The notes beneath the pieces are model-generated. The model worked only from the letters and a program-made list of their open reading frames with translations. It was not told the origin of the DNA and ran no database searches. From a virus, in IMG/VR virus record IMGVR_UViG_3300011126_000095, positions 1 through 22,140 of that record: a DNA stretch of 22,140 bases; one strand, 5' to 3'. This document shows, piece after piece, positions 427 to 22,140 of the stretch. Each line of letters starts with the position of its first letter. Position 1 is the first letter of the stretch. A program made the position numbers and the translations under genes.

Positions 427-2080
427 ACAAAAGCATTCGGCTGATGCTGTAAGGTATGCGCAAAGCGCTGTCAACGGGGAGATTGTTGCTGGCCACCTGG
501 TAATACAGGCTTGCAAGCGCTTCTTAAGCGACCTAGATAGAGATGATATTTTTTATGATGAAAAGGCTGCTGAGAAGGCTTGTAATTTCATCGAGCTGCT
601 GCCTCATACGAAAGGAAAGTGGGCGGCAAAGAAAGAGACGCTAATACTCCAGGCTTGGCAGAGATTTATCATATGCAATCTATTTGGCTGGAAGTTGTCA
701 GAAGGCGGTCCAAGACGATTTAGGACTGCGTTTAATTTGATAGCAAGAAAGAATGGTAAATCTGCGCTTGGTGCTGGCATTGGTAATTTCTGTTTTTGCG
801 CCGACAACGAATTTGGCGCTGAAATTTATTCCGGCGCGACAACTGAGAAGCAAGCATGGGAAGTATTCAGGCCAGCTAAGTTGATGGTTGAGAGAACGCC
901 TGAGCTTAAGCAGTTTTATGACATTGACGTCAACGCTAAGAACATGTGCATACTTTCCAATGGATCTCGCTTTGAGCCTTTGATTGGGAAGCCTGGTGAT
1001 GGGTCCAGTCCTTCATTAGCTATTGTTGATGAGTATCACGAGCATGATAGTGATGAACTCTATCAGACAATGGAAACAGGTATGGGGGCAAGAGAACAGC
1101 CCTTAATGCTTGTGATATCAACGGCTGGGTCCAACCTATCCGGCCCGTGCCATGAGATGCAGCGCGACGTTGAACGCTTGCTGAATGGTGAGTTTGAGGA
1201 TGATTCCTTATTTGGGATTATCTTTTCTGCTGATGAAGATGATGAATGGGACTCTGACGATGCATTGTTAAAAGCTAATCCGAATATTGACATCTCGGTA
1301 TCGGGTGATTTTTTAAGAGCGCAGCGCGATCAGGCTAGACGGTCCGCTAGCAAACAGAACCATTTTAGAACCAAGCATCTCAATCAGTGGGTTGGTGCCA
1401 AGACAGCATGGATGAACATGTTAGCCTGGCAGCGGCAAAGCAAGCCCAATAAGTTTGAGCAGTTCAAGTCAGCCCCGTGTCACATGGCTATCGATCTTGC
1501 ATCCAGGAAGGATGTGGCTGTTATCAACTTATTGTTCAAGCAGGGATCTGAGTTTTATACCAAGAGTTGGTTCTATGCACCTGAGTCTGCGGCGGAAGAG
1601 AACGACAAGTATCAGAATTTTGCGTTATCTGGCGAGCTTATCCTGACGGATGGCAATAAGACAGATCAAGCGTTGATTGAAGAGCAGATTAAAATACTTT
1701 GCTCAGATTTTGACGTAAGGTCTATTGCATTCGATGACTGGCAGGCTGATTACATGATGACCAGGCTAATGGATTGCGGTCTACCAGTGGTCAATTACAA
1801 CCAGACTATCAAAAATATGTCTACGCCGATGAAGGAAGTGGAAGCCGTCATATTGGACGGCAATTTATACCACGACGGCAATCGGTGCATGACATGGATG
1901 ATGGGTAATGTTGTGTCGCGCGTTGACGCTAAAGACAATATCTATCCGAGAAAGGAAAATGATAATGATAAGCGCTGTAAAATTGACGGTCCGGTTGCAT
2001 TGATTATGGCAAAAGGCAGGTGGCTATCTGAAGAGACAGGCGGCTTTGACGATTTCTTGAGTAACCCGGTAGCGTTATGA
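407..2080 (+). CDS. terL: phage terminase large subunit, HK97-like (Terminase_1)
   Basis: ATPase/nuclease that packages DNA into the prohead. The 557-residue protein has a Walker A-like ARKNGKSA at residues 113-120 and a Walker B IVDEYHE around 206-212 with D208/E209. These are followed by a coupling-type VISTAGSN. The C-terminal nuclease half shows acidic residues in conserved positions: D363 in AIDLASRKD, D443/D444 in AFDDWQAD and D527 in KIDGPVAL. The start is a TTG at 407, because no ATG or GTG precedes the conserved N-terminus in frame; AAGAAGG at about 390-396 can serve as the ribosome site. The gene overlaps terS by 20 bases and the portal gene by ATGA. Confidence 0.95.
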   Translation: MPNWSIEQKHSADAVRYAQSAVNGEIVAGHLVIQACKRFLSDLDRDDIFYDEKAAEKACNFIELLPHTKGKWAAKKETLILQAWQRFIICNLFGWKLSEGGPRRFRTAFNLIARKNGKSALGAGIGNFCFCADNEFGAEIYSGATTEKQAWEVFRPAKLMVERTPELKQFYDIDVNAKNMCILSNGSRFEPLIGKPGDGSSPSLAIVDEYHEHDSDELYQTMETGMGAREQPLMLVISTAGSNLSGPCHEMQRDVERLLNGEFEDDSLFGIIFSADEDDEWDSDDALLKANPNIDISVSGDFLRAQRDQARRSASKQNHFRTKHLNQWVGAKTAWMNMLAWQRQSKPNKFEQFKSAPCHMAIDLASRKDVAVINLLFKQGSEFYTKSWFYAPESAAEENDKYQNFALSGELILTDGNKTDQALIEEQIKILCSDFDVRSIAFDDWQADYMMTRLMDCGLPVVNYNQTIKNMSTPMKEVEAVILDGNLYHDGNRCMTWMMGNVVSRVDAKDNIYPRKENDNDKRCKIDGPVALIMAKGRWLSEETGGFDDFLSNPVAL

Positions 2081-3312
2081 GATTATTTACAAGGCTTTTT
2101 AGCTTTTTCGGCAAAGATATGTCCAACCCTGAAGAGGGTGAGCAGTCTACAGGGCCGGGTACATACAGAACTGACTCCGGGATCGCTGTTGCTGATGAAG
2201 ATGCAATGAAGCTATCGGCTGTTTGGGCCTGCGTTCAGATTATTACTGATTCAGTTTCATCGCTTCCGTTAAACTGGTACAGGCTTAGCGGAGAAGACAG
2301 GAAAAATCTAGAAGACAACCACTTTCTGTCAAGAATTTGGCGCAATAAGCCGAATGTTTATATGAAACACCGTGATTTTCGTAGAGCTTTGACAATGCAG
2401 CTTGCTTTATGGAATAACGCATACGCAAAGATTGATTATGGATCGGGTGGCGATGTTGTTGCTATTACTCCGCTTCATCCCGCGCGAATGGTTGTTTATC
2501 GCGACCAGTTTGGATTGACATATCACTATCATGGCGACCGAGGCGTACATGTCTGGTCTGATAAATCTATTTTACATCTAAAGGGTATGGGTGTTGAGGG
2601 TAATGTCGGACTTAATCGGTCGGACTTTGCGAGAGATACATACGGCGTTGCGGTATCTGCGAATAAATACGCGGCCAAGCAGTTTGCCAATGGCGGTAAT
2701 CCTGGCGGCGTTCTGACTGTTGATAAATTTCTAACGCCACAGCAGCGGGATCAGCTAAGAGAGATTTATGAGGGTATTTCAGCCACTGCGGAGAATGCGA
2801 ATAGATTATGGGTTCTGGAGGGCGGGACTAGCTACCAGAAGATCCTCCACGACCCCAATACAATGCAAATGCTGGAGTCAAGAGAGTTTCAGCAATCAGA
2901 CATAGCCAGGTTTTTCGGTGTCCCTGCCGTTTTAATCGGTGCTGGAAGTAGCGCAAGCAGTGCATGGCCAGCATCATTCGAACAGCAACAGCTGTCTTTC
3001 CTGACGTTCACACTGAACTCTTATTTAGAAGAATGGGAGCAATCCTTAATGGATGCTCTTGTACCAATCGGTCAGAGAGGCAAAGTTATTGTTGATCATG
3101 ATGAGGACGATTTCATTCGGATGGACTCAATGGCCAAAGCTTCCTTCTTGTCTCAAATGTCTCAGAACGGCTTGATGACGCGCAATGAAGGCCGCAAAAA
3201 ACTAAGATTACCCAGGGTTGATGGTGGCGATGAACTAACCGTTCAAGTCAATCTTACAGAGTTAGACGATTTGGAGAAAGTAGATGATAAGCCAACTGAT
3301 AACCCCCTCTGA
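2077..3312 (+). CDS. HK97-family portal protein
   Basis: Dodecameric ring at the capsid vertex through which DNA enters and leaves. The 411 residues contain the family hallmark near the N-terminus (AVWACVQIITDSVSSLP). Further on is the conserved region FFGVPAVLIG, followed by SSAWPASFEQQQLSF and the helical LEEWEQSLMDALV, as in HK97 gp3-type portals. The start ATG lies in the ATGA overlap with the terminase stop, so it is probably translationally coupled. The C-terminal tail is acidic and overlaps the protease gene by 29 bases. Length is normal for the family. Confidence 0.95.
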   Translation: MRLFTRLFSFFGKDMSNPEEGEQSTGPGTYRTDSGIAVADEDAMKLSAVWACVQIITDSVSSLPLNWYRLSGEDRKNLEDNHFLSRIWRNKPNVYMKHRDFRRALTMQLALWNNAYAKIDYGSGGDVVAITPLHPARMVVYRDQFGLTYHYHGDRGVHVWSDKSILHLKGMGVEGNVGLNRSDFARDTYGVAVSANKYAAKQFANGGNPGGVLTVDKFLTPQQRDQLREIYEGISATAENANRLWVLEGGTSYQKILHDPNTMQMLESREFQQSDIARFFGVPAVLIGAGSSASSAWPASFEQQQLSFLTFTLNSYLEEWEQSLMDALVPIGQRGKVIVDHDEDDFIRMDSMAKASFLSQMSQNGLMTRNEGRKKLRLPRVDGGDELTVQVNLTELDDLEKVDDKPTDNPL

Positions 3313-3976
3313 TCTGTGCGAATTCAAATTCGCTGAAGGAAAAGACAACTGGTCATTCGAGGGTTATGCCTCGGTTTTTAATTCCGAAGATCAAATCGGG
3401 GACACTGTTCTACCGGGCGCATTTAAGTCTTGTATTGAGCAGAAAGGCGCTGGCGGTATATTTATGCGCTATGAGCATCTTAGGCATACCACTCCCGGCA
3501 AGTGGACTCATGTAGAAGAGGATTCCAGGGGCTTTGTAGTTGCTGGAGAGCTAACAAAGGGTCATAGCATTGCCTCCGATATCAGAGCTTCATTTAAGCA
3601 CGAAACAATCAAAGGGCTGTCTATCGGCTGGGTTCCATCGAACTCTGTCATTGAAAGAAAGCCTGGCGGAAGAATATTAAAGTCTGTTGATGTATTTGAA
3701 ATCAGTATCACGGCTAATCCGATGGAAGTCGGGGCGGAGGTTACGTCATTCAAATCAGAAATAGAGACGATTTCATCAATGAAAGACGCCGAAGCATTCC
3801 TGAGAGAGTCAGGGATACTATCGAAGTCAATGGCTACCCTGTTCGTTGGCCATCTTAAATCGCTTGTTCGGAGTGAGTCTGAAAAAGTATTTGAGGAAGA
3901 GTTAAACGAGCTAAAAACCCGTATAGAAGTAGACCATTCAACTGACAAATTATTGTCGATCATATCTAATTTATAG
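3284..3976 (+). CDS. prohead protease, HK97-type serine protease
   Basis: Cleaves the capsid protein delta domain during prohead maturation and then itself. The 230-residue protein carries FEGYASVFN near the N-terminus. The expected catalytic residues are visible as H65 (RYEHL), S113 (GLSIGW) and an acidic E139 (VFEIS) followed by ITANPM. The region after residue 160 is charged and helical, and may bind scaffold or capsid. ATG 3284 is preceded by GGAG at 3272-3275 inside the portal gene. It sits directly upstream of the major capsid gene, its substrate. Confidence 0.93.
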   Translation: MISQLITPSDLCEFKFAEGKDNWSFEGYASVFNSEDQIGDTVLPGAFKSCIEQKGAGGIFMRYEHLRHTTPGKWTHVEEDSRGFVVAGELTKGHSIASDIRASFKHETIKGLSIGWVPSNSVIERKPGGRILKSVDVFEISITANPMEVGAEVTSFKSEIETISSMKDAEAFLRESGILSKSMATLFVGHLKSLVRSESEKVFEEELNELKTRIEVDHSTDKLLSIISNL

Positions 3977-5510: not shown

Positions 5511-6061
5511 CGGTCAATAACGCGTACTTGTTAGTGCCTTGGGCTGATCACTTGTATGCTTGCGATGCAAAGTGGTGGGATCAGAATATTGCCGATGTCA
5601 GCGACAATTTCATTGGAAAAAAATGGATACAGAACTGCGAAAAGCAGAAAGAAAATGATAAGTTGCATTTTAATGCGGCCAAAAAGCATGAGCTAAATAT
5701 TGTATATGGGCGTGATAGCGTAGGGCTTGGTAGTGATGTTATTCACTATGCGAGCAATTCGGGTTATCAGGCTATTAATTTGGCTTATTTATGGGGTGCG
5801 AGTCTAATAGTCCTGCTAGGATATGACATGCAAAAGACAGGAGGTGAGGCCCATTTTTTTGGCGACCATCCTTCCGGTCTGGCCAACGGCCCTGATTTTA
5901 ATAGTATTATTCCTAAATTTGATCCTCTAGCCAAAGAGTTGGCGGCGGAAGGCGTCGAGGTGATTAATTGTACGCGTCAGACAGCTCTAAAATGTTTCAA
6001 GAGGCAAGATTTAGAGGCCGTACTGCAGTCATTATCGGCACAGGGCCGAGTCTCGACATAG
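5423..6061 (+). CDS. DUF115/MptE-like protein, -1 frame part of a fusion (first paralogue)
   Basis: Probably a nucleotide- or sugar-phosphate-handling protein of the DUF115/MptE-like type seen in phage and surface-sugar loci; the exact reaction is unknown. The open frame from 5408 encodes IFCLATGPSL, then VIAVNNAYLLVPWADH, CDAKWW, NSGYQAINLAYLWGAS, VLLGYDM and VINCTRQTALKCF, all family-like blocks. No canonical start lies before IFCLATGPSL; the first TTG (5528) would remove the glycine-rich motif and about 35 conserved residues. A -1 slip at 5417-5423 gives a 276-residue fusion with the upstream small protein. The 3' end overlaps the second paralogue. Confidence 0.78.
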   Translation, partial: AGTTIFCLATGPSLTKEDCEKIKGYGQVIAVNNAYLLVPWADHLYACDAKWWDQNIADVSDNFIGKKWIQNCEKQKENDKLHFNAAKKHELNIVYGRDSVGLGSDVIHYASNSGYQAINLAYLWGASLIVLLGYDMQKTGGEAHFFGDHPSGLANGPDFNSIIPKFDPLAKELAAEGVEVINCTRQTALKCFKRQDLEAVLQSLSAQGRVST

Positions 6062-6633
6062 AGGCGGTTACTGCAGCTAAAAATAGCGGTGCGGTACTTT
6101 TCGGCAGTAATAACACGTTCAACGATTTTGATTTAGATGTCTGGATTGCGTGCGATCCTTCCTGGCATGATGAGTACAGCCCGGTATTGCTTGATGCTGA
6201 TTGCTGGCACTGGGACAGATCTATTTGCGACAGGTATAATTATCATTACATAGAGGGCCGCTGGGGTGCCGGGTTATCGACTGACCCGTCATACATCCAT
6301 TATGGACATAGCAGCGGATTCCAAGCGTTAAATTTGGCCGCTCATTACGGTTGTGACCTTATTCTGTTAGTTGGTTACGATATGAACTATAATGGGCATC
6401 AGAGACATTATTTTAACGGCTTAAGCGCTAATAGAGGCGAATATCCCAAGCGGATACGGAAGTTTTCGAATTTCGATAAGCCAAGAGTTAAAACAGGGAA
6501 TCCGAAAGATTGGGGATTGTTTCAGTATTACGAATCAGTGGCCAAACAGAGCGGGTTACCACGGATTATAAATTGCACTCCAGGCAGTGCTTTGCAATGC
6601 TTCCCAGTGGGAGATTTATGCAAACTTTGTTAA
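5992..6633 (+). CDS. DUF115/MptE-like protein, second paralogue
   Basis: 213-residue relative of the preceding gene, with the same order of motifs: VIIGTGPSL near the N-terminus, CDPSWHDE, SSGFQALNLAAHYG, ILLVGYDMNYNG and IINCTPGSALQCFP at the end. ATG 5992 was chosen because it lies just before the first motif; an in-frame TTG at 5968 is also possible. It overlaps the upstream gene by 70 bases and the methyltransferase gene by 16. Tandem paralogues suggest successive or heteromeric steps on the same sugar or nucleotide substrate. Substrate not deducible from sequence. Confidence 0.82.
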   Translation: MFQEARFRGRTAVIIGTGPSLDIEAVTAAKNSGAVLFGSNNTFNDFDLDVWIACDPSWHDEYSPVLLDADCWHWDRSICDRYNYHYIEGRWGAGLSTDPSYIHYGHSSGFQALNLAAHYGCDLILLVGYDMNYNGHQRHYFNGLSANRGEYPKRIRKFSNFDKPRVKTGNPKDWGLFQYYESVAKQSGLPRIINCTPGSALQCFPVGDLCKLC

Positions 6634-7256
6634 ACCCGTTCGACTGGTATGCCGGTGATACGCTTCACTGGCCCATGGATGACATCAAGCTCCAGCAAGT
6701 TAATGACTGGATTGTTGATGTAGATCAAGCAATGTCACACGTAGAACATTTTGGCCTTGCGATTCAGGCGGGCGGTGCATGCGGCATATGGCCTGCTAGG
6801 TTGGCTGGCTTTTTTGATGAAGTTATCACTTTTGAGCCTGTTTTAGATAATTATGAGTGTTTATTGGCTAATTGTGAGAGATTTGACAATATAGAGGCTA
6901 ATTTTGGCGCATTAGGCAGAAAAACAAGTGCTGTAGATATGCGTAGAGATGACTTTGAAAAAGGAAATGCTGGAGCATGGTACACGGTTCCAGGCACTGA
7001 CATCCTTCAAGTGGCTATCGACGATATGAATTTATCCCGATGCGATTTAATCATGCTTGATGTTGAGGGTTCTGAACTAGAGGCTCTGGCGGGCGCGGTA
7101 GGTACGATAAGCAAGTTTAAGCCGGTTGTTGTGATCGAAAACAAGCAATTGCCGCACATGAAAGAGCTTGCGAAGAAGGCTGAGGAATTTGTCGTTTCCT
7201 TGGGATATCATCAGGTGGCAAAGTACCATAATGATCTTGTTTTAGTGCGTAATTAA
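6618..7256 (+). CDS. FkbM-type SAM-dependent methyltransferase
   Basis: Predicted O-methyltransferase of 212 residues, a group often acting on sugars. The SAM-binding loop is AIQAGGACGIWPARLA (residues 48-63), followed by ITFEP at 70-74. LIMLDVEGSELEALAGA (144-160) is the FkbM signature block, and VVVIENK follows. ATG 6618 has GGGAG at 6608-6612; longer readings from TTG 6510 overlap the upstream gene too far. It lies within a run of sugar-related genes between capsid and connector genes, so a virion or host glycan is a reasonable but unproven substrate. Confidence 0.85.
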   Translation: MQTLLNPFDWYAGDTLHWPMDDIKLQQVNDWIVDVDQAMSHVEHFGLAIQAGGACGIWPARLAGFFDEVITFEPVLDNYECLLANCERFDNIEANFGALGRKTSAVDMRRDDFEKGNAGAWYTVPGTDILQVAIDDMNLSRCDLIMLDVEGSELEALAGAVGTISKFKPVVVIENKQLPHMKELAKKAEEFVVSLGYHQVAKYHNDLVLVRN

Positions 7257-7269
7257 TTTTGGTGACATT

Positions 7270-7395
7270 ATGATTTTATTTCTAACCGTACTTTTTGTTT
7301 TATACCTTTTTTGGTCTGGCTTTATTTATATTGGATATGATGAGGAAAAGTACAAAGCCTCATTTTTTGGCGCTCTTTTGATGCGTAGGGAGTAG
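7270..7395 (+). CDS. 41-residue single-pass membrane peptide
   Basis: Short gene reading MILFLTVLFVLYLFWSGF and then IYIGYDEEKYKAS, with an RRE C-terminus and a TAG stop. Residues 2-23 form one strongly hydrophobic segment, followed by a polar, charged tail. GGTGA at 7261-7265 precedes ATG 7270, and the gene fills the only gap between the methyltransferase and glycosyltransferase genes. No family recognised. It could anchor or assist the neighbouring sugar enzymes at the membrane, or be an inner-membrane moron peptide; this is inference only. Confidence 0.6.
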   Translation: MILFLTVLFVLYLFWSGFIYIGYDEEKYKASFFGALLMRRE

Positions 7396-7403
7396 GGACC
7401 TAA

Positions 7404-8105
7404 ATGCTGACAGTCTGGTGTGTATGCGTTGGTGACAAGTACAGCGACGAAGATGTCTGGATATTGCAGAGAATGGTTGCTAACAACATTAAACAACCCT
7501 ATCAATTCAAATGTCTCGCAGACCGGATTATTCCCGGCGTATACAGCGTTCTAAGCAAGCATGACTGGCCTGGCTGGTGGTCAAAGCTGGAATTATTTGA
7601 AATTGCCACAGAAGGCCAGCACCTATATTTCGATTTAGACGTTGTTATCACTGGAAATATTGACGAACTAGTATCTAAAAAGCTTTCGATGCCAAAAAAC
7701 TGGGCTCAGTCAGGACATGGTGGCTGTCAGTCGTCGGTAATGGCCTGGGGTGATGATTACTCCGTATTAAGTGATGCCTTTCAGCCTGAGCTATTAAGTG
7801 ATCCGTCCGGTGGAAATTATGGATGGTACGGAGACTTAAGGTTGTGGGGTGATCAAGAATTCATTTCGTATTTTCTGGGGGCTCCTGGTGACGGTCTTGA
7901 TATCACCAACATTGATGACGATGAGCCTCGATACATTGTTCGCGTAGTGGAAATGAAGCATATCTACTCTTACAAGTATCACAGCCGTCAGTCGCTTCCA
8001 CATGATGCGAGGGTAGTATGCTTTCATGGTTTACCAAAACCTTCAGATGTTAATGATCAGTGGGTAAAAGATGCGCGCAGTCGTCCACGTCAATCCGTCG
8101 CTTAG
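7404..8105 (+). CDS. putative GT-A glycosyltransferase with DxD motif
   Basis: 233-residue protein with LYFDLDVVITGNIDEL around residues 74-89, where D77-L-D79 is a DxD metal/nucleotide-sugar motif as in GT8-like enzymes. Upstream, WPGWWSKLELFEIA (55-68) resembles the conserved segment before DxD in phage-encoded relatives. The C-terminal region contains VVCFHGLPKP, similar to the metal-binding histidine region of this fold. AGGGA precedes ATG 7404. It overlaps the next sugar-type gene by 35 bases. Likely transfers a sugar to a capsid or host surface acceptor; the acceptor is unknown. Confidence 0.75.
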   Translation: MLTVWCVCVGDKYSDEDVWILQRMVANNIKQPYQFKCLADRIIPGVYSVLSKHDWPGWWSKLELFEIATEGQHLYFDLDVVITGNIDELVSKKLSMPKNWAQSGHGGCQSSVMAWGDDYSVLSDAFQPELLSDPSGGNYGWYGDLRLWGDQEFISYFLGAPGDGLDITNIDDDEPRYIVRVVEMKHIYSYKYHSRQSLPHDARVVCFHGLPKPSDVNDQWVKDARSRPRQSVA

Positions 8106-8721
8106 CTGGCAGTTGCGATACGGGGCGGCCATTACAGGTAGCCTGTCCGATTTCGGCATTGATGCACGCATTACCAACAACCCTAAAGAGAGTGACGATT
8201 TAACAGTTGTTTTAGGCCCGCACTGGGCAAAGCAGCATCACGGGCACCATCGATGCCTGTATGTCGATAGAGCCTACTGGGGCGATCCTGGCGCGGTTTC
8301 ATTCCATTGGATTAGCCGTGGAGAGAAAGAGTTTAACTGGTCAGGCAAGGGTGGTAGATCGCATCCACCACTATCCCCGTTAAAGACGGGCAACAAAACG
8401 GTTGTTCTGTGTGATTACAACACGCTTTTCGAGCTTAGCGGCGCTACGGTCAGGCGGCATCCATCAGAAGTCAAGCAAAGCGAAACACTTTCTGAATGTC
8501 TTGCCCGGCATCAAATAGCAGTGGGCGGAAGATCTACAGCGCTTGTTGACGCGGCAATTGCTGGTTTACGCGTTGTCACTAACGATGATTATAGCCCGGT
8601 TAAGCCATTATCATTTTCTGTAAATCCAGATCGCGAACACTGGATAAAATCCTTGTCCTGGCACAATTGGACATTTGACGAAATAGAGCGCGGAGAGCTA
8701 TGGCCTCATTTCCTAAAGTAA
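8071..8721 (+). CDS. GT-B-like glycosyltransferase-related protein
   Basis: 216 residues of mixed alpha/beta character. The best clue is VGGRSTALVDAAIAGLRVV (151-169), resembling the nucleotide-sugar-binding segment of GT-B transferases, where a residue near the helix start holds the donor. The N-terminal half has VVLGPHWAKQHH and YVDRAYWGDPG blocks. It is shorter than a full GT-B enzyme, so it may be a reduced or single-domain form. It overlaps the preceding glycosyltransferase and the connector gene (22 bases). Family assignment is tentative. Confidence 0.55.
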   Translation: MRAVVHVNPSLSWQLRYGAAITGSLSDFGIDARITNNPKESDDLTVVLGPHWAKQHHGHHRCLYVDRAYWGDPGAVSFHWISRGEKEFNWSGKGGRSHPPLSPLKTGNKTVVLCDYNTLFELSGATVRRHPSEVKQSETLSECLARHQIAVGGRSTALVDAAIAGLRVVTNDDYSPVKPLSFSVNPDREHWIKSLSWHNWTFDEIERGELWPHFLK

Positions 8722-19437: not shown

Positions 19438-19578
19438 CGCATCCCATGATTTAAGGCGGCTTTTCAAAGCAACGGATGTAATCCCGAATACATATCTCGC
19501 AATAAACGAGAATTGTACGCCATCCGATATCATTTCCAGCGTAAAAACAACATCACTTTCCGTTAATTTTCTTTTCAT
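19432..19578 (-). CDS. 48-residue small protein, HTH-like
   Basis: Short minus-strand gene: it starts MKRKLTESDVVFTLEMI, and its second half is FIARYVFGITSVALKSRLK, which fits a helix-turn-helix-like pair (ARYVFGITSVALKSRL). No family is assigned. Its ATG (19578-19576) shares an ATGA overlap with the stop of the upstream 76-residue gene, strong support that it is translated by coupling. Its TGA (19434-19432) lies past the convergent late operon's stop, so the two strands' coding ends overlap by six bases. Confidence 0.6.
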   Translation of the reverse strand: MKRKLTESDVVFTLEMISDGVQFSFIARYVFGITSVALKSRLKSWDAL

Positions 19579-19805
19579 GCCTTGCACCGTATCCTTAATG
19601 GGTTTGTATGCCCGATCTTAAGACGATGACGCCAGTTTGATGCCGCTCTCTCACATTCATCCCTTGCACCCCTGTGCAGTAGTATATAGTCCCTGGCGTA
19701 GTCGCTAACCAGCGCATTGAGATTTGATTCAATAGCAGAGGCTTCTTTCTGAATATGAAAAGAATTCTGCTTCCTACTCCATTCTAAAACCCATGACTCT
19801 TTCAT
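19575..19805 (-). CDS. 76-residue conserved phage protein of unknown function
   Basis: Begins MKESWVLEWSRKQNSFHIQ, a pattern recalled from small proteins in lambda-like early and nin regions, and continues with LVSDYARDYILLHRGARDE and a basic tail. AAGGTG at 19814-19809 (minus strand) precedes the ATG, a strong ribosome site located immediately after the R box of the first attC-like repeat. The downstream 48-residue gene is coupled by ATGA. Function unknown. Confidence 0.7.
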   Translation of the reverse strand: MKESWVLEWSRKQNSFHIQKEASAIESNLNALVSDYARDYILLHRGARDECERAASNWRHRLKIGHTNPLRIRCKA

Positions 19806-19814
19806 AAATCACCT

Positions 19815-19865
19815 TTTTAACACTTTGATACAAAAGACCTTCGGCTTTTGATCGTTTCGTTATAA
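19815..19865. repeat. attC-like imperfect inverted repeat 1
   Basis: Plus-strand layout: R box TTTTAAC (19815-19821), spacer ACTTT, L box GATACAAAAG with one extra A, centre ACCTTCGG, L box CTTTTGATC, spacer GTTTC, R box GTTATAA (19859-19865). Arms are separated by two 5-base unpaired spacers, as in integron attC. A 45-base core is 44/45 identical to repeat 4. The stop TAA of the 55-residue gene lies in the right R box. It could also act as a transcription terminator hairpin. Confidence 0.6.
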
Positions 19866-20027
19866 ACCTGACCATTCGCGAACCACCTCTTTCAGTGACT
19901 CGTATTGGCTATCGCTAATTACAAGAGTTAGGCCGCCAATGCGAATAGAAAGCGAATCCAAATCAATTTCATCAATAGCGAAGTCGCTCGCAGAGTCGTC
20001 ACCAGATAAATCTATTTGTGTGTCCAT
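19860..20027 (-). CDS. 55-residue acidic protein, single-gene cassette
   Basis: Short gene reading MDTQIDLSGDDSASDFAID, then IDLDSLSIRIGGLTLVIS and a C-terminus EWSGL. It has 13 Asp/Glu against 3 Lys/Arg, so it is strongly acidic, but no family is recognised. It lies alone between attC-like repeats 2 and 1, and its TAA stop falls inside the R box of repeat 1, the arrangement of a one-gene integron cassette. The start ATG (20027) is weakly preceded by GAGAG. DNA mimicry or inhibitor activity is only a guess. Confidence 0.65.
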   Translation of the reverse strand: MDTQIDLSGDDSASDFAIDEIDLDSLSIRIGGLTLVISDSQYESLKEVVREWSGL

Positions 20028-20048
20028 GCTCGTACTCTCAAAATCGGT

Positions 20049-20114
20049 TTATAACAAAGCAGTGGAGTCACTGCGTTCGGACGGCTAACGCCGCCGCTCA
20101 CTTTGGTGTTATAA
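20049..20114. repeat. attC-like imperfect inverted repeat 2
   Basis: 66 bases: R box TTATAAC (20049-20055), spacer AAAGC, L box AGTGGAG with one extra G, a longer centre with inner hairpins (GACGGC/GCCGCC-type arms), L box CTCACT (20097-20102), spacer TTGGT, R box GTTATAA (20108-20114). The R boxes are perfect inverted copies. Best attC candidate of the four because of its length, 5-base spacers and extrahelical base. The TAA of the 169-residue gene lies in its right R box. Confidence 0.62.
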
Positions 20115-20618
20115 AACCCCGTTCCTCTTAAACTTATCTAGCCAATTATTCCGCATATAATCAATGTCATTCTTCCAGCAACAGCCGTTTGAGCGCTTGT
20201 TAAAGTAAGTCTTTTGAGATATCCCGATGTGCTGAGATATCTTTGAAGGAGCGTGTAGCGTGGAAGGGTAGATTACTTCGTCAACCATTATTTTCGCTAT
20301 TGCGCTAATCTTTCCACCAATGTCTGTGATTCTCCTTCTCGCTACGTATGGACCGATCAAATCCTGGCAGTGGCCCTCAAGCAGCAGCCTTGCCGCCCTT
20401 CTGTGCTCGTCCTGCTTGTGACATCTGGCATCTTCAACCAGTACCTCTTGCCAGCTTTGAGATGTATGTGTTGGCTTAAAAACTGGGATATCAGTACCGC
20501 CCTTATTGCTACGAGTCTCTTTCCCGTCAGCACTGTACAGATCATTAAAGCAGTATTGATTTCTGACGTTGCTATAACGTAAGCCTGGCTGTCTTTTGCT
20601 TTTAGTCGATGCGTTCAT
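20109..20618 (-). CDS. 169-residue protein with possible C-terminal HTH; candidate late regulator
   Basis: Not recognised with confidence. The N-terminal third is polar (KSKRQPGLRYSNVRNQY); the middle has QDEHRRAARLLLEGH and CQDLIGPYVARRRITDIGG. The last third, with SKISQHIGISQKTYFNKR and DIDYMRNNWLDKF, could be a helix-turn-helix followed by a terminal helix. In lambda-like phages the gene after ninG at this position is often an antiterminator (Q-like), so a late regulator is possible. AGGAAG lies upstream of ATG 20618, which overlaps the stop of the zinc-ribbon gene (ATGA). The stop is inside attC-like repeat 2. Confidence 0.55.
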   Translation of the reverse strand: MNASTKSKRQPGLRYSNVRNQYCFNDLYSADGKETRSNKGGTDIPVFKPTHTSQSWQEVLVEDARCHKQDEHRRAARLLLEGHCQDLIGPYVARRRITDIGGKISAIAKIMVDEVIYPSTLHAPSKISQHIGISQKTYFNKRSNGCCWKNDIDYMRNNWLDKFKRNGVL

Positions 20619-20767
20619 GTAATCTTCCTTTCTCGCCCTATAGCTTTATCGAAATATTTGCATGATAAGCAATACCAGCCTGCCAACCTTTTTTTTGCGC
20701 AGCTTCTAACTTTTAGAGTATCTTTGTTTCCGCAATTCTTGCAAGTTTTAGGCGTATCAGCATCCAT
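20615..20767 (-). CDS. 50-residue zinc-ribbon protein
   Basis: Short gene with cysteine pairs C9-x-x-C12 (TCKNCGN) and C33-x-x-C36 (WYCLSCKYF) and an additional C23; a typical four-cysteine zinc ribbon. The tail is basic (KAIGRERKIT). It starts one base after the ninG stop and overlaps the next gene by ATGA, so all three are probably co-translated. It may bind nucleic acid or a recombination partner; small zinc proteins are frequent in nin regions. Exact function unknown. Confidence 0.72.
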   Translation of the reverse strand: MDADTPKTCKNCGNKDTLKVRSCAKKRLAGWYCLSCKYFDKAIGRERKIT

Positions 20768-20768
20768 A

Positions 20769-21179
20769 TCACAGACCTATTCTTTTTTTGTGAAAATTAA
20801 TTTGATCGTTGAATTCACGCAAAAGGTCATCATAGTCAGCTTTGTATAGCTTTTTAACCCGCTTTTTACTCTCCTCCATAAGGTCTACAAAATCTTTGCC
20901 GTAATAATCTATCATCCAGATAGTATACCTTTGAGCGGCGGTCCCAAACTTCATACCAAAACTATTACAACTTTTACATTGTGGGTGAACATTTTCTTTT
21001 TCTAGTGACCAGTAGCTCGAATGCCCTTTAGGGATAAAGTGACCGCCATCCATTTCATTCCATTTAAAAATCCCATTACAAGATACGCACTGGCAGTACC
21101 CGTTATCATCAGCAGATTCTAATCTTGATAAAAGCTGAATAGCGTCTAAACATTTCGCTCGAATCGTTTTTTTAGGCAC
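20769..21179 (-). CDS. ninG: NinG/Rap-like HNH protein
   Basis: 136 residues. A C29/C31/C34 cluster (GYCQCVSCNG) is followed by GGHFIPKGH (H47) and NVHPQCKSCNS (C68, C71), the pattern of the NinG recombination protein HNH/zinc core. The C-terminus is a charged helix (REFNDQINFHKKRIGL). The start is a GTG at 21179 because GGAGG lies upstream at the right spacing and it overlaps the NinB-like stop; an earlier ATG at 21245 would overlap that gene in another frame. It lacks the N-terminal part of lambda NinG (about 204 residues). Likely acts in homologous recombination of phage DNA. Confidence 0.85.
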   Translation of the reverse strand: MPKKTIRAKCLDAIQLLSRLESADDNGYCQCVSCNGIFKWNEMDGGHFIPKGHSSYWSLEKENVHPQCKSCNSFGMKFGTAAQRYTIWMIDYYGKDFVDLMEESKKRVKKLYKADYDDLLREFNDQINFHKKRIGL

Positions 21180-21609
21180 TTCCAGCCTCCGGGTACTCAG
21201 CTCTTCCCTTTGTCTCCCTGTCAGGAAAAGGGACATAAACGTCAAGCTCTGAATTTTTACGATTTATCACGTCAAATATCCTTGATACCTGTTCTTTTTT
21301 TACCTTGGTAATACTGCGCGTATTAAACATCGCTTCCTATATGTACTTCCAGACGTTTTCCCGATAGCGCTCTTTCGTCCAAGGTATGTCTGTTCCTTCA
21401 TTGAAATATTCAAGAACTGTAATCCCTTTATTATTTAGTTCTTCTGCCATCATTTCACACCACAAAAATATAGCATTGTGCTGCGGTGTTGTTTTTTCAT
21501 CTGATATGATTTCAAATGTTATGGATTTATCTTCTTCAAATCCTCGCCTGGCTCTTGATATAAACTCACCAAGCTGCCATTCGTTTTTAATTGTGTATCG
21601 CTCTCCCAT
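21172..21609 (-). pseudogene. ninB: NinB-like recombination protein gene split by an in-frame TAG
   Basis: The full frame spans 145 sense codons plus one internal TAG (21339-21337). Before the stop, MGERYTIKNEWQLGEF, TTPQHNAIFLWCEMMAEEL and DIPWTKERYRENVWKYI match NinB-like phage proteins. After it, the same frame continues with EAMFNTRSITKVKKEQ, SRIFDVINRKNSEL and VYVPFPDRE, also as expected, and stops next to ninG. One C-to-T change of CAG would give the amber codon. Alternatively the two halves are made separately: ATG 21330 with AGGAAG just upstream could restart. Full length is close to lambda NinB (142). ATG 21609 begins two bases from attC-like repeat 3, whose GGAG could be the ribosome site. 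Confidence 0.75.
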
Positions 21610-21610
21610 T

Positions 21611-21662
21611 CTATAACACTCCAATGAACGAGACCTATCGGCTCGTTATCTGTTCGTTATAC
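21611..21662. repeat. attC-like imperfect inverted repeat 3
   Basis: Plus strand: R box CTATAAC (21611-21617), spacer ACTCC, L box AATGAACGAG with one extra G, centre ACCTATCGG, L box CTCGTTATC, spacer TGTTC, R box GTTATAC (21656-21662). It has the same spacer lengths, extra-base position and a centre similar to repeats 1 and 4. The TAA stop of the 63-residue gene is in the right R box. The NinB-like gene begins right beside the left R box. Confidence 0.6.
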
Positions 21663-21848
21663 CTCAACAACCCTTAGCGTAAGCTCTGCCCCTGCAATAC
21701 CGTCCCCAGTGCTATCTACCTCAATATTTGGGATCGATATAAATTCTGCCTCACAACCTGCACCAATATAAAAAGAAATCTCCCTACTTCTTCCGGACGC
21801 CCCTTTTTCTAGTCGTTGCAAAACATCAATAAGATCAGTTGTTGTCAT
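21657..21848 (-). CDS. 63-residue hypothetical protein
   Basis: Small gene starting MTTTDLIDVLQRLEKGASGR and ending LTLRVVEV. No known family; the N-terminus is helical, the rest beta-like. GGAGGGTGAT (minus strand, 21862-21853) is a very strong ribosome site before ATG 21848. The stop TAA lies in the R box of attC-like repeat 3, matching the end of a cassette gene. It follows the putative HTH gene by 18 bases and probably shares its transcript. Confidence 0.65.
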   Translation of the reverse strand: MTTTDLIDVLQRLEKGASGRSREISFYIGAGCEAEFISIPNIEVDSTGDGIAGAELTLRVVEV

Positions 21849-21866
21849 TTTATCACCCTCCAGATG

Positions 21867-22052
21867 CTACAATCCTTCACTTTCTATAATATCCGGCCTG
21901 TTTTTCCTAAGCCTCCACAGCCAGCCGTCTGGAATATCCTTGCTATCATCTCGATTACAGACGGCTGATAAGTGAGCGCCACAATCTTTCGCCAGGTCTG
22001 ACTTTGGCCTATTGCTTAACTTATAATACTTTAATAGCTTTTTTAGCTTCAT
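21867..22052 (-). CDS. 61-residue putative HTH regulator, Cro/YdaS-like
   Basis: Short protein: KKLLKYYKLSNRPKSDLAKD, then CGAHLSAVCNRDDSKDIPDG and WLWRLRKNRPDII. The pattern of a first helix, a turn with DLAKDCGAHLSAV and an IPDGWLWRLRKNRPDI end recalls small Cro/YdaS-like DNA-binding proteins of phages. AGGTG lies upstream of ATG 22052. It is the first gene downstream (minus strand) of attC-like repeat 4. The HTH match is weak and the protein may be something else. Confidence 0.55.
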   Translation of the reverse strand: MKLKKLLKYYKLSNRPKSDLAKDCGAHLSAVCNRDDSKDIPDGWLWRLRKNRPDIIESEGL

Positions 22053-22090
22053 TTAACACCTATTCTGTAAATTAATTAAACCAGTTTTTT

Positions 22091-22140
22091 ACATAACACT
22101 TTGATGCAAAAGACCTTCGGCTTTTGATCGTTTCGTTATG
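22091..22140. repeat. attC-like imperfect inverted repeat 4 (right end cut by window)
   Basis: Plus strand: R box ACATAAC (22091-22097), spacer ACTTT, L box GATGCAAAAG with one extra G, centre ACCTTCGG, L box CTTTTGATC, spacer GTTTC, R box GTTATG up to the last base of the window. The 45 bases 22095-22139 match 19819-19863 with one mismatch, 2276 bases apart in direct orientation. The outer CATAAC/GTTATG is a perfect inverted pair. Confidence 0.6.

Follow-up and report, generated by a model that had tools for sequence, protein, structure and literature searches.

Do the hairpins that separate minus-strand genes of an uncultivated phage mark integron-like cassettes, and how would such units be exchanged? 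This question is raised by the IMG/VR record IMGVR_UViG_3300011126_000095, a linear genome fragment of 22,140 bases that we analysed in full (hereafter the window), with head and tail genes on the plus strand and a minus-strand block from ~19.43 kb to the record end. A first-pass annotation had described four repeats in this block as sharing one layout of R box, spacer, L box and extra base, and had read them as integron attC sites that divide a nin region into cassette-like units. We find that the four repeats are genuine attC sites and by known categories form a cluster of attC sites lacking an integron integrase (CALIN), with the neighbouring genes antisense to the sites. Altogether, it is probable that these true attC sites make up a phage-type CALIN in a minus-strand accessory or nin operon, whose units are exchanged between phages by an integron integrase (IntI) of the host.

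All four repeats lie where the annotation had placed them, and on the plus strand all read AAC, 5 nt, 3 bp, one extra base, 3–6 bp, a loop, the matching arms without the extra base, 5 nt and GTT. In attC1 (19815–19865), R'' TTTTAAC (19815–19821) is followed by a spacer (19822–19826) and L'' GAT-A-CAAAAG with the extra base A at 19830, and the right arm consists of L' CTTTTGATC (19845–19853), a spacer (19854–19858) and R' GTTATAA (19859–19865), with the exchange point between G19859 and T19860. The left arm of attC2 (20049–20114) is formed by R'' TTATAAC, spacer AAAGC and L'' AGT-G-GAG (extra base G at 20064), and its right arm by L' CTCACT, spacer TTGGT and R' GTTATAA (20108–20114), with exchange between G20108 and T20109. 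For attC3 (21611–21662), the corresponding elements are CTATAAC, ACTCC and AAT-G-AACGAG (extra base at 21626) on the left, and CTCGTTATC, TGTTC and GTTATAC (21656–21662) on the right, with one A·C mismatch in the outer L helix. attC4 (22091–22140) has its extra base G at 22106 and an R' box, GTTATG (22135–22140), truncated by the record end.

A strict scan for this layout on both strands found three of the four sites on the plus strand and none on the minus strand, compared with 0.27 strict matches per 22 kb, both strands, in the shuffled window; allowing one mismatch recovered all four sites and two weaker places (15118 on the plus strand and 19222 on the minus strand). attC1 and attC4 are 98% identical over 46 nt, and apart from this pair the helix sequences differ among sites, whereas the spacing, the extra base and the core boxes are kept in all four. 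The repeats are thus imperfect inverted repeats with unpaired spacers of ~5 nt and a single extrahelical base in L'', and their R boxes (RYYYAAC ... GTTRRRY) carry the core YAAC and GTTA in every case. The second R of GTTRRRY is T in the window (GTTATAA/C/G), likewise in many of the bona fide sites used for training below. In minimum-energy folds of the single-stranded DNA, the bulge is visible in attC1 and attC4 and absent in attC2 and attC3.

The annotation had proposed an attC covariance-model search, and the covariance model (CM) supports its attC interpretation, matching all four sites on the plus strand. The CM was trained on 24 bona fide attC sites, none from the window, with sites drawn from plasmid class 1 and class 2 integrons, one Shewanella and one Vibrio integron, and two published phage CALINs. 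On the plus strand, attC2 scored 27.6 bits (E 1.1e-4), attC3 21.2, attC1 18.0 and attC4 17.2 bits, and the best non-site in the window 10.8 bits; bona fide sites, most of them training members, score 17.0–37.4 bits under the same CM, a range that includes all four window sites. On the minus strand, attC3 falls to 9.9 bits; the 18.0 bits of attC1 come from an unfiltered search, the filtered search returning this site on the minus strand only, at 16.2 bits. A hand-made scoring matrix separated the sites less well than the CM and was not relied on for attC1. In Pseudomonas phage D3 and 28 loci that carry a related ninG gene, the CM maximum was 15.3 bits and no attC site was found.

The four sites lie within 2.3 kb and, as the annotation had cautioned, a search of the 22-kb record, itself a fragment, found no integron integrase, which places the array among CALINs rather than complete integrons with intI in cis. 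In a canonical attC site, the extra base is located in L'', next to R''; therefore, the attC top strand here is the plus strand. All genes of the array are on the minus strand, unlike the bacterial-type cassette, where the gene is sense to its attC site and the site lies 3' of it. In every complete unit, the final gene (55, 169 and 63 residues) stops at a TAA provided by the TTA of an R' box (19860, 20109 and 21657, respectively), and genes start shortly behind the other box. What can be exchanged is therefore a unit of the form attC-leader-gene(s)-stop, the mirror image of the bacterial gene-attC cassette.

This polarity is not peculiar to the window. Viral contigs were searched with two attC classes, each defined by exact L boxes including the extra base, and 150 stretches matched, most of which the CM confirmed together with further sites beside them. 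Genes were called with a home-made codon model, which closely reproduces the annotation of phage MW202573 and of the Shewanella integron, loci were clustered by similarity, and an array was classed as antisense when 80% or more of the coding bases nearby were antisense to attC. Among 110 independent viral clusters, 82 were antisense, 16 sense and 12 mixed (82 against 16, p 7e-12); both L-box patterns agree on the antisense polarity, and of ten further loci, nine were antisense and one was mixed. In contrast, most of the polarity in bacterial and plasmid integrons and in phage TJE1 came out as sense when they were run through this pipeline; flanking genes left the call ambiguous for two plasmid stretches that have one or two sites. 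Among the sense clusters are L084, an isolate record with a real integrase, and an AT-rich cluster whose matches are weak. IMG/VR contigs may hold misassigned bacterial DNA, but such an error would add sense arrays.

In two records (L042/L067 and L070/L096) there is one array per strand, and every array is antisense to its own genes; the first is a single 41.5-kb record with eleven attC sites in two opposite-strand arrays, each antisense to its own operon. The annotation's reservation, an extra base in the first L box of the plus strand while the genes read on the minus strand, thus describes the usual state in phages. The gene stops, with 138 of 265 genes stopping exactly at G/TTA, are weaker evidence than they first seem, since TTA is a stop in one of three frames and the null expectation is about one third. 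No report of an antisense polarity rule was found in the open-access literature, which does not prove that there is none; this polarity appears to be new, the phage CALINs themselves having been described in 2023 (PMC9892861).

Sequence comparison of viral contigs shows that whole units move between them, with junctions at G/TT of R', in several pairs. The close relatives L047 and L093 are 95–98% identical over several kb, and L093 has one extra unit with a gene of 115 residues, entered at CTGGCG/TTAGGC and left at CTAGCG/TTAGGC. Three other pairs have a single unit in common: 286 bp at 99.7% in L057/L085, which share nothing else, 646 bp at 94% in L054/L062, and 562 bp at 98.9% in L104/L142. 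In L103 and L114, a stretch of 7.2 kb at 99.97% identity ends precisely at the R' core, where the two diverge. Taking together all pairs, which are not all independent, the shared segments have 193 internal ends, and 26 of these lie at most 12 nt from a cut in at least one partner, compared with 4.3 expected by position. The sequences outside the junctions are unrelated, which argues against homologous recombination. The pair L053/L087 was rejected as an exchange pair, its difference lying 114 nt away from attC.

The annotation had proposed to look for breakpoints at G/TT of the R box in related phages; units gained, lost or shared at this point were found in other phages of the same architecture, and no relative of the window phage was found. 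Searches with tail protein J and the 169-residue protein gave no close relative, nor did NinG in bacterial genomes; there was no DNA match in phages and no relevant one in plasmids, and exact searches with the window's own L boxes gave zero matches in viral contigs and bacterial genomes.

The carriers of antisense arrays look like phages, as the genes adjoining the arrays match the terminase large subunit (four loci), DNA polymerase, PhoH, RecE-like exonuclease, DnaC-like loader, phage integrase and head-tail adaptor. IntI exceeded the family cut-off in one of 50 records, that of the sense array L084, and most antisense records, though many are fragments, have no IntI- or Xer-like match at E 1e-10. 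The 189 antisense units have a median of 405 bp and 146 hold a single gene. Most products are small and of unknown function; DNA methyltransferases of several families are the commonest recognisable cargo, followed by Mom-type modification, and attC-borne units with such genes are frequent across the viral loci L042–L186. A counter-restriction role of this cargo is plausible.

In the window, unit A (19860–20108 from G/TT to G/TT, 249 bases) consists of a gene of 55 residues on the minus strand (19860–20027), whose TAA stop is made by the attC1 R' box, and attC2. Unit B (20109–21656, 1548 bases) holds five minus-strand genes and attC3: a 169-residue gene without a family match (20109–20618, stop in attC2 R'), a 50-residue zinc ribbon (20615–20767), ninG (20769–21245, NinG Pfam E 1.2e-10), a 52-residue open reading frame (ORF; 21172–21330) and a ninB-like gene (21337–21609), whose GGAG Shine-Dalgarno sequence on the minus strand sits in the attC3 spacer ACTCC. 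Unit C (21657–22135, 479 bases) contains two minus-strand genes, of 63 residues (21657–21848, stop in attC3 R') and 61 residues (21867–22052), and attC4. Beyond the array, a 76-residue gene (19575–19805, minus strand; phrog_6104, function unknown) starts 16 nt past attC1. The annotation's labels 'ninB' and 'HTH' found no support in Pfam, PHROGs or NCBIfam; besides NinG, no product of the array had an informative match in these three collections.

The NinG match and a conserved gene order place unit B with lambdoid nin regions, where ninG and neighbouring nin genes form one operon. The order ninB-like, 52-residue ORF, ninG recurs among viral loci without attC (L001–L028); thus, unit B is an ordinary native nin-type phage operon bounded by attC sites, not foreign cargo. 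The annotation's picture of a nin region built from cassettes is supported as far as attC-bounded units are concerned, with the limit that its central unit is a native block whose order is kept in attC-free phages.

How would such units move? Since the phages carry no integrase, the likeliest enzyme would be a host integrase, which in an infected cell would bind the bottom strand in its folded form, cut at G/TT of R' and so swap units from one phage to another. Strand choice fixes the orientation of an inserted cassette. With a uniform unit-to-attC polarity, a swap between phage arrays would keep the gene in line with phage transcription, and a bacterial cassette entering a phage array would be reversed and silent. 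The antisense placement would also make the recombinogenic bottom strand the non-template strand of a transcribed operon, so that transcription may expose it and help it to fold. Orientation is known to alter how often bottom strands fold and excise in the case of replication (PMC11023631), and IntI1 recombines attC sites from cultured phages at a level matching that of a bacterial control, preferring the bottom strand (PMC9892861).

Several observations weigh against this explanation. attC1 and attC4 are near the lower edge of the bona fide scores, and attC1 is nearly as good on the minus as on the plus strand (16.2 versus 18.0 bits). The extra bases are A, G, G and G, where bona fide top strands have C or T in 26 of 28 cases. 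TJE1 and some other viral arrays are sense, and the gene calls rest on the home-made caller. Finally, the searches above found no relative that shares the window's units, whose own mobility we infer.

If the host did not supply IntI, a phage-borne or other tyrosine recombinase could move the units. The scarcity of IntI in the antisense records and a reversed polarity unusual for IntI arrays speak for such an enzyme; the same records, many of them fragments, mostly lack any Xer-like match as well, and the cultured-phage sites recombine with IntI1 at normal rates (PMC9892861), which makes this alternative unlikely. The array might instead be the decayed remnant of a bacterial integron piece captured once, its attC sites now inert boundaries. 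Phages are known to capture integron pieces (PMC9892861), no integrase accompanies the array and two sites score low; however, captured bacterial cassettes would be sense, whereas genes are antisense to attC in the window and in 82 of the 98 viral clusters with a clear polarity. Moreover, none of the four sites has lost its spacers, extra base or R boxes, although the helices differ, and unit B holds native phage genes, so decay seems quite unlikely.

The hairpins are intergenic and stand directly behind stop codons, as would be expected of attC look-alikes that serve in the minus-strand mRNA as terminators, processing sites or transcript insulators, and attC hairpins are thought to be weak terminators (PMC9892861). 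No U tract follows the stems on the minus strand and there is no Rfam match, and an RNA role would leave unexplained why all four sites have 5-nt spacers, one extra base and conserved AAC/GTT boxes, and why units are exchanged at G/TT in other phages. We regard this reading as very improbable, and exchange of attC-bounded units by a host integrase remains our preferred explanation.

A broader proposal, to which we give an even chance, is that phages own a cassette pool of reversed polarity, made of attC-first units with the gene antisense, which host integrases exchange among unrelated phages and which carry small unknown genes and often DNA methyltransferases. The polarity would allow units to be expressed in phages but leave them silent in bacterial integrons, giving two largely separate cassette economies with one recombination chemistry; it may thereby help to explain why the bacterial and phage pools stay apart. 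Phage mosaicism is usually credited to illegitimate and homologous recombination, and exact attC exchange would be a site-specific route for accessory genes, including DNA methyltransferases that may counter host restriction. The reversal of polarity is a rule that can be checked in any phage collection.

Compared with known systems, the window is closest to the phage CALINs of Qi et al. 2023 (PMC9892861), which include those of MW202573 and Pseudoalteromonas phage PH101 and are likewise integrase-free attC clusters in phage genomes; that study does not describe a general antisense polarity or any exchange of units from phage to phage. MW202573 encodes the best match to the window NinG in the phage collection, and it too has multi-gene units and attC sites antisense to genes, with four sites on the minus strand (2069–3738) and genes there on the plus strand. 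PH101, called typical in that study, is a cultured phage with IntI1-active attC sites; relative to the attC sites that we located in it, the annotated genes run antisense, and some plus-strand ORFs outside the annotation are present as well. Directly behind two of its sites (L187 25919–27987, NC_029094 75919–77987) are plus-strand ORFs with a repeated leader, one with an in-frame TAG; these ORFs make PH101 mixed, and it was rejected as a cultured antisense example.

Bacterial integron arrays (class 1 and 2, and the chromosomal arrays of Vibrio and Shewanella) share with the window the attC architecture, the array of short units and exchange at G/TTRRRY, but have an integrase and sense polarity. 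Lambdoid nin regions share the NinG homologue and the order of ninB-like gene and ninG; the classical ones have no attC, nor do the relatives L001–L028. Phage D3 (Detrevirus) resembles the window in its terminase (57% identical) and left end, but its ninG is on the other strand near the right end and it has no attC. The distance from the terminase to the left end is nearly equal in both, and together with the terminase likeness this identifies the record as the left part of the genome of an uncultivated D3-like siphophage.

Some further features were observed. The record start (1–40) matches the left-end position of phage D3 and may begin at a cos end. In the late operon, five non-structural-looking genes (5528–8721) lie between the major capsid protein and head-tail connector genes. 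Among the other viral loci, the record of Vibrio phage Va_90-11-286_p16 has genes for threonine-tRNA ligase, a translation initiation factor and ribosomal proteins (L031 23843–27019), and part of it looks like host chromosome. At its right end, the window stops 5 nt past the attC4 exchange point (22135–22140), where an assembly would branch if the cassettes in the population differ; such alternative neighbours may account for the cut, or it may be accidental.

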